Shown one piece after another: positions 15,283 to 60,551 of a DNA stretch of 64,000 nt (position 1 is the first letter of the stretch; each line of letters opens with the position of its first letter). The notes under the pieces were generated by a model. That model did not search any database. It worked only from the letters and a program-made list of their open reading frames with translations, and was not told where the DNA came from. Made by a program: the position numbers and the translations under genes. Source of the DNA: Clostridia bacterium. Its GTDB lineage: Bacteria > Bacillota > Clostridia > Oscillospirales > Acutalibacteraceae. Where the stretch lies: the NCBI GenBank assembly GCA_017521125.1, contig JAFXDV010000001.1, forward strand, positions 62,001 to 126,000. The letters are read 5' to 3'.

Positions 15283-15942
15283 TTAAGAATTTAGTGCATC
15301 TATGAGATTTAAAAGCTCCAATGGCTTTTCGATAATAAATTCTGCGCCGTTTTCGTTTAATTCCTCAATTTCTCTGTATCCCCAGAGTTCTCCAACGGCT
15401 ACGGCTCCGCTGTTTACCGCAGTTTTTACATCCACGCCTGAGTCCCCAAGGAAAACACACTCCTCAGGCTTAACACCAAGCTCTTTCATTAAGAGTTTGG
15501 CAAGTGTTGGGTCAGGTTTTGTGGGTATTCCCTCTCTTTGTCCGAAGATTTCATCAAAGACATCTCCGTAAAGGGACTCTACAACAATTTTTGCCATAGG
15601 CTCCGCCTTATTTGTACAAACGGCAATTTTAAAGCCTCGTTTTTTAAGCTCTTCTAAAAGCTCGCTTACTCCTTCATACTTAACTGTAAGGTCGGAGGAA
15701 TGTTCTTTATAGAAGGGAGCAAAAAGTTCGTTTGTCTTTTTTACATCCTCGGGAGATTTATGTCCTTCGGGCAATGCACGTTCTAACATCTTAGGAATTC
15801 CGTCTCCCACAAAATATTTGAATGCATCGGTCTCGTGGGTGGCATAGCCTTGCTTTGTTAGTGCATAGTTGGTAGCGGCGGCAATGTCTCCAAGAGAGTT
15901 GCAAAGAGTTCCATCAAGGTCAAAAAGTACTGCTTTTATCAT
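15283..15942 (-). CDS. gph: HAD-superfamily hydrolase, phosphoglycolate phosphatase-like
   Basis: A 219-residue haloacid-dehalogenase phosphatase. Motif I is FDLDGTLCNS with the nucleophile Asp, motif II is AVCTNK, the Lys of motif III lies in PTKPDPTL, and motif IV is FLGDSGVDVKTA. The helical cap of about 70 residues after motif I is the C1 type found in phosphoglycolate phosphatase and pyrophosphatase PpaX. Substrate remains uncertain. It is upstream of the dCMP deaminase gene on the same transcript. Confidence 0.85.
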   Translation of the reverse strand: MIKAVLFDLDGTLCNSLGDIAAATNYALTKQGYATHETDAFKYFVGDGIPKMLERALPEGHKSPEDVKKTNELFAPFYKEHSSDLTVKYEGVSELLEELKKRGFKIAVCTNKAEPMAKIVVESLYGDVFDEIFGQREGIPTKPDPTLAKLLMKELGVKPEECVFLGDSGVDVKTAVNSGAVAVGELWGYREIEELNENGAEFIIEKPLELLNLIDALNS

Positions 15943-15963
15943 ATATTAGTGTCAACTCCTATT

Positions 15964-16238
15964 GAAGCAAATACGAATAAACCAAACCTGATTTTAAAGG
16001 GTAGTTTTCCGCCTTTGCTTTGTTAAAATACTCGTTAATCCACAAAGGATTAACTGCGTTTTATGTCTCGCACAGACAAAAAGCTACACCTTTAAAATTC
16101 TACGACCTAAAATTAACAGAATTTTGTGTGATTTTTGGTGCGAAGGAGTCAGTAAGGCTAATGCCTACTAACGACGACAAACCGAAAAGCGCCAAAATTA
16201 TGCCATTTTAGGCAGGTTCGGTTTATCCGTATTGGCTT
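15964..16238. repeat. Non-coding element with imperfect terminal inverted repeats (TIR element A)
   Basis: Most of the 423-base gap between the phosphatase gene and rpmB is a 275-base unit bounded by 27-base imperfect inverted repeats, 15964-15990 and 16212-16238 (about five mismatches). Further pairing is nested inside: 15990-16004 with 16084-16100, and hairpins at 16037-16055 (TTAATCC loop GGATTAA), 16111-16124 and 16150-16169. There is no convincing reading frame. It looks like a miniature inverted-repeat element or a structured RNA; copies elsewhere cannot be checked from this window. Confidence 0.6.
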
Positions 16239-16298
16239 AAATATTGTATCATAATATTGGGTATTTTTCAATAAATATAAATTTTTTTTAAAAAAGTC

Positions 16299-58567: not shown

Positions 58568-58597
58568 ATTATACACCATAACCTGTCACTCTTGCAA
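58568..58597 (-). promoter_or_regulatory. Promoter of the membrane protein-nnr transcript, sharing its -35 with the divergent promoter
   Basis: TTGCAA (58592-58597), 18-base spacer, TATAAT (58568-58573) on the minus strand. TTGCAA is self-complementary and also serves the plus-strand promoter. Confidence 0.7.
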
Positions 58598-58620
58598 TAT
58601 TTATATCTTTATTGTATAAT
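58592..58620 (+). promoter_or_regulatory. Promoter of the ABC exporter gene
   Basis: TTGCAA (58592-58597), 17-base spacer, TATAAT (58615-58620). The predicted transcript starts at about 58627, at the edge of TIR element B, leaving a leader of nearly 290 bases. Confidence 0.72.
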
Positions 58621-58626
58621 TATTTT

Positions 58627-58900
58627 AAAGTTGGCAAGAGTCGAACACAATACGCCTTCAAAACAAAATTTACGTAATAATTTGCCTCAAAACTTGAAAT
58701 ACCACAGTATTTCTGAATTTAGTTGACTTCCTCTACGGCAAAAATTTTGTCTTTGAAAGGTCGAAGAGTTTCTGCCAACGACTTTATTAGTGGACAAAGC
58801 GTGATTTTGCCGCAAGGCTGTCGCCTTGCAAAAAAGAGCGCAAAGTTCAATGATTAAAGGCGATGAGCGAAACCGTATCGGGTTCGACTCTTGCCATCTT
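58627..58900. repeat. Non-coding element with terminal inverted repeats (TIR element B)
   Basis: 27-base imperfect inverted repeats bound a roughly 270-base unit: AAAGTTGGCAAGAGTCGAAC at the left (from 58627), with its counterpart ending in GGTTCGACTCTTGCCATCTTT at the right, three to four mismatches in total. Inside are GCAAGGC-TGTC-GCCTTGC (about 58812-58829) and other pairings. No credible reading frame is present. It fills the gap between the exporter promoter and its Shine-Dalgarno, so it would be transcribed as leader RNA. Its sequence is not evidently related to element A. Confidence 0.65.
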
Positions 58901-58916
58901 TCTGGAGGTGCATATT

Positions 58917-60551
58917 TTGAAAAGCAACCGCCCCTTAAAATACATTGCCACACAGGCTAAACCTTTTTTATCTAAAATCATATGGCGCAGTATTATTGGT
59001 ATTCTATCTTCTGTCGCTCTATTTTCATTTGCTATTTTTTCAGGAAACGTGCTTGACATTTGCACCGGAGAAAAACAGGGAGATTTAACCCTTAATATAA
59101 TCTTTCTTTTTGCGGCAATTCTTCTTAACGCTCTGCTTACCGCCTTGAACGTTCATTTGTCGGCGGTGCTTACCGGCAGACTTAAAATGCATTTCCAAAA
59201 ATCTGTTTTTTTAGGGTTCACTTTAAAGCAGTTTGACAAAACCTCAAAGTATCATTCCGGAGATATTTTAAACCGCCTGACCGATGACATAAACATCATT
59301 ACAGGCTCGGTTTCAAGCATTATTCCTACCATTTGCTCCTTTGTGGCTAAAATTGCTATTGGCGTTACGGCTCTGGTTATGTTCAGTCCGTCTTTTGCCC
59401 TTATTGCCGTAGTGGGCGGCCTTATTGTTCCGACCTTTGGCAGACTTATTTCTGCAAAATACAAGTCACTACACAAGCAGGTGCAAAAATCAAACGGTGT
59501 TACACGCTCTTTCCTACAAGAGTGTTTAGAAAATATGTCGGTTGTAAAAAGTTTTTCAAGTTTTACTCCTATCGAAAACCGACTTGACGGCTTTTTGGAG
59601 AATAATTATAAGCTGAAAATCAAAAGAAATAATCTTCACATTTTAACCCATTCGGGACTACATACCGTATTTTCTCTTATCTATTACGTGATTTTGGTTT
59701 TAGGAGCCTTTTCTATTGTTAAAGGCGATATTACCTATGGTGTACTTATTGCTATTTTGCAAATTGTAAATCAGCTTAGAATGCCGCTACAAAATATTTC
59801 AGGCATTCTGCCTCAGTACTATTCGGCTATTGCCTCGGCAGAAAGACTTTTAGATCTCCACGACATTGAGGATGAAGAAACTCCTATAGATTCTGATAAA
59901 TTAGGAGAAATTGCTCAGAACTTTAAGGAGATTAAAGCGGAAAACCTCAGTTTTTCATATAACGAGGAAAAAGTGATTTTTGACAATCTTAATTTCTCTA
60001 TAAACCGTGGCGATACAGTAGCCTTAAGAGGAAAATCAGGCAGAGGAAAAACAACCCTGTTCAAACTCCTTTTAGGTCTGTATTCGGCAAATAGCGGAAG
60101 CATTTCTATTGATGGCAAAGCGCTTTCATCGGTATATCGAAGGCTTTTTGCATACGTTCCTCAGGGTAATATGATTTTATCAGGAAGTATCAGAGAAAAT
60201 ATCGCATTAAACCGTGAAAATTTAACCGATGAGGAACTGATTTCGGCCTGTAAAACCGCAGAAATTTATGATTATATCTCTTCTCTGCCTAAAGGCTTTG
60301 ATACCGTTTTAGCAGAGCGAGGCGCAGGTCTCAGCGAAGGTCAGGTGCAACGCCTTGCCATTGCAAGAGCACTTGTTTCCTCCTGCCCCATTCTGCTTCT
60401 TGACGAGTCTACCTCGGCACTTGACGAAAAGACCGAAAAGGCGGTGCTTAAAAATCTGTCAACCCTAAAGGATAAAACCATTCTCATTATAACCCACAGA
60501 GAATCTGTCCTTGATATTTGTAATAAAACAATAAGTTTACAGTGTGAGTGA
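58917..60551 (+). CDS. ABC transporter, fused permease and ATP-binding domains
   Basis: A 544-residue half-exporter of the ABCB/MsbA type. About six membrane helices occupy residues 30-310, then the nucleotide-binding domain shows Walker A LRGKSGRGKTTLFKLLLG, signature LSEGQVQRLAIARAL (LSGGQ with Glu), Walker B ILLLDESTSALDE and the switch His in IITHRES. It probably exports lipids, peptides or drugs as a homodimer or with a partner not seen here. A longer frame begins at 58863 inside TIR element B; the TTG at 58917 with GGAGGTG seven bases upstream is the likely start. The XRE gene follows after five bases. Confidence 0.88.
   Translation: MKSNRPLKYIATQAKPFLSKIIWRSIIGILSSVALFSFAIFSGNVLDICTGEKQGDLTLNIIFLFAAILLNALLTALNVHLSAVLTGRLKMHFQKSVFLGFTLKQFDKTSKYHSGDILNRLTDDINIITGSVSSIIPTICSFVAKIAIGVTALVMFSPSFALIAVVGGLIVPTFGRLISAKYKSLHKQVQKSNGVTRSFLQECLENMSVVKSFSSFTPIENRLDGFLENNYKLKIKRNNLHILTHSGLHTVFSLIYYVILVLGAFSIVKGDITYGVLIAILQIVNQLRMPLQNISGILPQYYSAIASAERLLDLHDIEDEETPIDSDKLGEIAQNFKEIKAENLSFSYNEEKVIFDNLNFSINRGDTVALRGKSGRGKTTLFKLLLGLYSANSGSISIDGKALSSVYRRLFAYVPQGNMILSGSIRENIALNRENLTDEELISACKTAEIYDYISSLPKGFDTVLAERGAGLSEGQVQRLAIARALVSSCPILLLDESTSALDEKTEKAVLKNLSTLKDKTILIITHRESVLDICNKTISLQCE

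Follow-up and report, generated by a model that had tools for sequence, protein, structure and literature searches.

A palindromic repeat, very probably a MITE-type mobile element, in the leader of an ABC exporter gene of an uncultured Clostridia bacterium

Small palindromic repeats of bacteria

The Correia/NEMIS, ERIC and RUP repeats are small, have inverted ends with TA at their termini, and give stem-loop transcripts (Table 1 of PMC2229807). The Correia/NEMIS repeats of Neisseria are described as short, with inverted ends of 24-26 bp, terminal TA and a stem-loop transcript (PMC2229807; PMC3049150), and RNase III cleavage of these transcripts is reported in the accounts of PMC10969869 and PMC2649163. 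The ERIC/IRU repeats of enterobacteria are, as PMC2229807 describes them, palindromic and intergenic, associated with TA, and co-transcribed with their neighbours; the same description gives a length of 127 bp, a contiguous end pairing of 7 bp, and an mRNA effect for which orientation is crucial. The RUP repeat of Streptococcus pneumoniae is a short and simple Firmicute repeat with inverted ends and terminal TA, and according to the description in PMC3049150 it is over-represented between convergent genes and downstream of genes, being densest 50-150 bp from genes. Another example is the CIR repeat of Caulobacter and Brucella, for which PMC2229807 describes a two-armed secondary structure kept between species.

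A palindromic element with similar features is located upstream of an ABC exporter gene in the window, the whole stretch of 64,000 nucleotides of Clostridia DNA that was analysed. The element is very probably a non-autonomous, MITE-type copy of a short non-coding palindromic family of uncultured Clostridia, for which insertion at TA and an effect on the leader are proposed, and the case for its identity as a mobile element is strong. It would work like Correia/NEMIS, ERIC and RUP, although homology to any of them is not claimed. Correia/NEMIS, to which it is likened by its features, belongs to another phylum, and the window element differs from it in being longer (273 bp), in having two internal arms, and in having ends that vary between subfamilies yet stay paired. 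Whereas orientation is crucial for the reported effect of ERIC, members of the window element's family adjoin Shine-Dalgarno sequences in both orientations. CIR differs in that a linker joins its two arms, with no closing end-to-end stem in the description of PMC2229807. The MITE-type family found here is apparently new, and its two unusual traits are a strand-neutral covariation over the full length and a crowding next to Shine-Dalgarno sequences; a literature search, made by text and thus unable to query by sequence, gave no description of it.

Organization of the exporter locus

The exporter locus contains the following features, all of them on the plus strand.

58592-58620, plus strand: sigma-70-like promoter of the exporter, TTGCAA-17-TATAAT, with 10 of 12 positions matched; outside the element
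58628-58900, plus strand: complete palindromic element, very probably mobile, 273 nt (nhmmer, model positions 2-275, E 1.8e-72; copy 2 at 91%)
58627-58659, plus strand: left terminal inverted repeat, its arm measuring 33 nt in this copy; the stem conserved among relatives is 27 bp
58660-58753, plus strand: left internal arm, with inner repeat 58660-58671 / 58742-58753, the folded arm being somewhat wider; helices 2-6
58766-58872, plus strand: right internal arm (approximate limits), containing the hairpin GCAAGGC..GCCTTGC; helices 7-11
58869-58901, plus strand: right terminal inverted repeat, a 33-nt arm pairing with the left repeat
58904-58908, plus strand: Shine-Dalgarno sequence GGAGG, just beyond the element edge
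58917-60551, plus strand: ABC exporter gene with TTG start, membrane and ATPase domains fused (PF00664, PF00005)

Most of what an initial annotation had read from this locus was confirmed. It had placed the promoter at 58592-58620 with its start point at the left terminal repeat and, assuming the usual spacing, we take transcription to start at about 58627, where the predicted start of the exporter transcript coincides with the element edge. The Shine-Dalgarno sequence and the TTG start of the exporter (58917-58919, in frame, with the reading frame open from 58917) were also as annotated. An element of 270 bases with inverted ends of 27 bases had been proposed; the repeat is real, and the borders common with relatives (58628-58900) correct its length to 273 nt, with terminal arms, as found, of 33 nt that are 85% complementary, have a perfect core of 14 nt and are separated by 209 nt. 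On the other hand, the longest reading frame does not begin in the right repeat as stated: it starts at 58863, within the element and 6 nt to the left of the right arm. The element carries no transposase gene and is overlapped by short frames only, besides the exporter frame where this extends upstream of the TTG. The promoter scan returned 5 sites in 701 bases versus 1.7 expected, and the promoter match is therefore weak evidence by itself. An opposite promoter-like site at 58597-58568, for a minus-strand DUF6106 gene, uses the TTGCAA of the exporter promoter, the pair spanning 58568-58620; with TTGCAA common to both, the two sites form a divergent promoter-like pair, and the element follows it close to where the exporter transcript is predicted to begin.

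Copies in the same genome and in related genomes

The genome that holds the window (G000; 17 contigs, 93.65% complete) has a second full copy of the element, 91% identical, on another contig, where it is placed before what is presumably an aldolase-like gene and is oriented the other way with respect to that gene. These two full copies are the only matches in this genome to the 14-nt end core with one mismatch allowed. Counting G000, element matches are present in 11 of the 98 genomes of a set of relatives and in 24 of 398 genomes of the family, the latter being a lower bound, as are the copy numbers from that search, in which two candidates were scored per genome. A two-ended exact pattern searched against 84,980 species, with one genome each, gave six stretches in three metagenome-assembled genomes (MAGs), SVPI01 (Oscillospiraceae SIG587), JAGBGJ01 (RGIG9094) and JAFTPI01 (RGIG4027); JAGBGJ01 and JAFTPI01 are recorded as deer-gut genomes. 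The end pattern is found in 22 of 25 genomes tested, with up to 24 matches per genome versus 0-2 for a reversed-pattern control, and plasmid and phage collections had no element match. With an element profile oriented by strand, 41 full or nearly full copies were compiled, and 43 full-length rows entered the structure alignment. The copies precede unrelated genes, in either orientation. That full-length homologues recur elsewhere in the genome and across genomes rules out a chance inverted repeat. Several contigs of G285, G258, G214 and G007 end within or near the element, an indication that it disrupts MAG assemblies and that the copy numbers given are too low.

An invertible promoter switch, flipped by a recombinase, would likewise have inverted repeats (here 27-33 bp long and enclosing about 210 bp) and both orientations among the copies. 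This reading is hardly tenable, as the promoter is located outside the repeats and the copies are at different sites, some of them with empty alleles.

Empty sites, TA flanks and mobilization

The mobility of the family is seen where one genome has the element and a relative does not. The joined flanks of six insertion sites were searched in two genomes of the genus of G058, and three G058 sites (L035, L069 and L021) each match the sister species G214 in a single unbroken piece, with identities of 98, 98 and 88%, which means that G214 lacks the element at these sites. At L035, the occupied allele, its flanks joined, exceeds the empty allele by exactly one TA, while the comparisons for L069 and L021 are not clean, differing by one base and by substitutions, small indels included. 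The L070 site carries the element in both G058 and G214; L030 is probably occupied in G214, since the match stops at the junction, near a contig end bearing element sequence; and the L041 site, occupied in G214, gives an ambiguous match in G058, split into two parts with about 1.1 kb between them. Of the 41 copies compiled, 38 have both flanks; TA adjoins both ends in 20 of these and one end or both in 30.

The window copy has AA on its left and TT on its right, so its own target duplication was lost or never present. Its right end has one base changed, CATCTT for CAACTT, and this change together with the missing TA indicates that the copy is probably old. A DNA search with the exporter in nine relatives of the genus found no orthologous match beyond one short piece, which leaves the window site with no empty allele for comparison. 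The check proposed initially, a search for other copies with target duplications, thus found other copies, a clean extra TA at one of three empty sites, and no duplication at the window copy itself. As a whole, the suggestion that a miniature transposable element sits between promoter and gene gains support from the copies, their two orientations, their presence or absence at given sites, and the TA sites.

In the proposed mechanism, a hypothetical trans-acting enzyme would recognize the paired ends and insert the element at TA. RUP ends resemble those of IS630-Spn1 in the description of PMC3049150, whereas none of 26 genomes carrying the window family has a DDE_3 (IS630-type) transposase, which was detected in 3 of 14 control genomes. 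DUF4096 was found in none of 12 genomes, and paired ends 1-3 kb apart were seen neither among the matches listed for the end pattern nor in the fetched loci. No parent transposon with matching ends came to light in these searches, which covered draft genomes. The family also includes shortened derivatives of 48 bp (L083), ~105 bp (L087), ~160 bp (L086) and ~192 bp (L088), which look like internal deletions, and footprint-like end remnants of ~23-35 bp (L095, L096 and L097).

Fold and covariation

The element region, folded as RNA, reaches -93 kcal/mol, with a z-score versus shuffles of -6.5 on the plus strand and -6.6 on the minus strand. Its structure was studied in an alignment of 43 full-length copies with 77% mean column identity. 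RNAalifold gave a partial fold by default and a full fold with ribosum scoring on 39 rows, a set that omits the truncated or aberrant L015, L019, L026 and L076, and the full fold was then counted on 43 rows. The resulting model is a three-way junction of 96 pairs, in which 89.0% of 4076 cells pair. Double changes are found in 55 of the 96 pairs, with 425 double-change cells versus 142 (sd 11.5) in shuffles, and the covariation score is 0.290 versus at most 0.076 for slid structures, a comparison biased toward the model, which comes from the very alignment on which it is scored. Further pair types, 120 versus 118.8 in shuffles, are not in excess. The terminal stems of full-length copies vary widely yet stay paired, some examples being AAGTTGGC/GCCAACTT, AGGCTAAC/GTTAGCCT, AGGGTAAC/GTTACCCT and AGTGTGAC/GTCACACT. 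The initial expectation that the ends pair, to be checked by covariance of the closing stem in relatives, therefore holds, as pairing is kept by compensatory changes in the 43 copies. Typical MITEs are deletion products of insertion sequences and have a free interior; the interior of this element, unlike theirs, is kept by compensatory change, a point against the MITE reading.

The pairing has no preferred strand. RNA tolerates G-U pairs on the transcribed strand, while A-C, which corresponds to G-U on the other strand, is not tolerated. Among the 86 pairs that the plus-strand and minus-strand models share, counted on 39 rows, 86 cells are G-U and 91 are A-C, and the near equality means that pairing is kept with no preference between strands. 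The same procedure applied to a TPP-riboswitch control (24 of 30 loci from related genomes, recovered by a motif rule) gave G-U/A-C counts of 27 versus 10 on shared pairs and 73 versus 11 on its own structure. A TPP riboswitch is also present in the window itself, at 990-1087 on the minus strand (79.6 bits, Rfam). Strand-neutral pairing fits selection at the DNA level, on a folded single strand or cruciform, or a process that corrects palindromes, and it also fits a selection on RNA averaged over copies transcribed both ways.

These results bear on the other possibility raised initially, a dedicated leader RNA of the exporter, riboswitch-like or otherwise structured. The strong fold and the occupation of the whole leader are what such an RNA would display, but it is very improbable here: the element had no Rfam match at gathering score, the scan of the whole window returning the TPP riboswitch only; the element is absent from the fetched DNA of all 11 exporter homologues found in other genomes (29-40% identity); and the copies precede unrelated genes in both orientations, with a fold that is equal on both strands and with G-U no more frequent than A-C.

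The ends were also considered as mimics of the T-arm and acceptor stem of a tRNA, by which RNase P and RNase Z could excise the element from mRNAs ahead of the Shine-Dalgarno sequence. The end core matches the tRNA T-loop consensus, TTCRANY, which occurs in 64 of the 86 ends of the 43 copies; the end pattern with 2 mismatches also matches a tRNA-end-like sequence common to several genomes, and its one match in a viral contig is a tRNA-like stretch, as judged by eye. Nevertheless, full pairing of the T-stem is limited to 19 of these 64 ends, with 249 of 320 pairs formed versus 235 in shuffles, and the conserved feature is instead the long end-to-end stem. Excision of this kind is highly unlikely, and the TTCRANY core may reflect chance or origin. 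When the window and four loci were scanned for tRNAs, none was detected.

Placement next to start codons and possible effects on mRNA

Placement was scored by simple gene calls on the joined flanks of 38 of the 43 copies, those that were scorable, with start calls that favour Shine-Dalgarno sequences and may thereby affect both copies and control sites. By the simple rule, 11 of the 38 copies are inside reading frames, several of them at gene ends, and setting these aside leaves 27 intergenic copies. No more than 30 nt upstream of a start are 14 of these 27, versus 260 of 1323 (20%) intergenic TA sites (Fisher one-sided p 2e-4); the counts are 12 versus 225 within 25 nt (p 9e-4) and 10 versus 186 within 20 nt (p 3e-3). 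In the AAGTTGGC subfamily, to which the window copy belongs, 7 of 8 scored copies are within 25 nt of a start (L001, L002, L010, L011, L021, L030 and L035, but not L020), in a subset that was picked after seeing the data and omits L046, which has the same end and is 147 nt away. L001, L021 and L035 have their gene to the right of the element and L002, L010 and L011 to the left, while L030 has one on either side. Thus the copies crowd next to starts and RUP does not, which makes their placement different.

In L002 and L035, the upstream gene ends in a TAA stop codon formed where the flank meets the first bases of the element. Most copies start with an A that adjoins the TA, so a stop codon whose TA receives the element would be restored as TAA; insertion between a stop codon or promoter and the Shine-Dalgarno sequence would leave the gene intact, and such copies would therefore be tolerated. 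At the exporter, an old copy would have landed at about the transcription start, and the exporter mRNA would consequently begin with the whole hairpin, its 5' end base-paired. Such a hairpin probably alters mRNA stability or RNase III cleavage, by analogy with Correia/NEMIS, and the element would not be a dedicated regulator; the effect on the exporter is one that we only infer.

A second reading keeps the same identity and assigns another function, the mobile element having been domesticated as a functional leader whose 5'-paired hairpin stabilizes the mRNA or provides an RNase III site, with copies adjacent to Shine-Dalgarno sequences kept by selection in either orientation. The placement counts, including those of the subfamily, speak for it, as do the conserved structure, the coincidence of the element edge with the predicted transcription start, and the equal numbers of G-U and A-C, which are also expected if copies are transcribed on different strands. 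However, the start-near sites L035 and L021 are empty in the sister species, where the genes manage without the element, and the 11 scored copies within reading frames also argue against it. Domestication is possible, though we consider it rather unlikely.

More doubtful still is a further proposal: the palindrome would move as a folded single strand or cruciform, the pairing of its whole length (96 pairs) would be selected on DNA, the outermost end sequence would be free as long as it stays paired, and the preferred target would be the gap from a stop codon or transcription start to the Shine-Dalgarno sequence, where the A of the element adjoining TA would restore TAA stops. The negative search for DDE_3 transposases belongs to the case for this proposal.

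Other palindromic families

Additional palindromic families were observed. One is represented in the window by a further large palindrome at about 15962-16234, whose ends are approximately AAGCAAATACGAATAAACC / GGTTTATCCGTATTGGCTT; folding of 15941-16260 gives -98.6 kcal/mol, and the interior of this palindrome is weakly similar to the element model (E 5e-4). Ends like these also adjoin the remnant in L097. A further hairpin family, with ends CGGAACGYACCCTTAAGGA, is represented outside the window by L003 (1445-1730, G000:C12) and L004 (G000:C6), one of the two copies being cut by a contig end, and it has a short inner stretch in common with the window element. In relatives, L027, L060, L098 and L115 have another end type, AGGGTAGAGCGAAT, L098 being apparently a chimera that joins two families.

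Implications

An element of this kind can mislead riboswitch searches that rely on structure alone, as it combines a strong fold, strong covariation and a leader position, and its transposed origin is revealed only by copy number, empty sites and the comparison of G-U with A-C. Should the folded-strand proposal be true, this would be a mobile element specialized for a harmless life in 5' leaders and operon gaps. Moreover, if the bias toward Shine-Dalgarno sequences is real, these elements would rewire leaders in uncultured gut Clostridia, the opposite of what is seen for the pneumococcal repeats.
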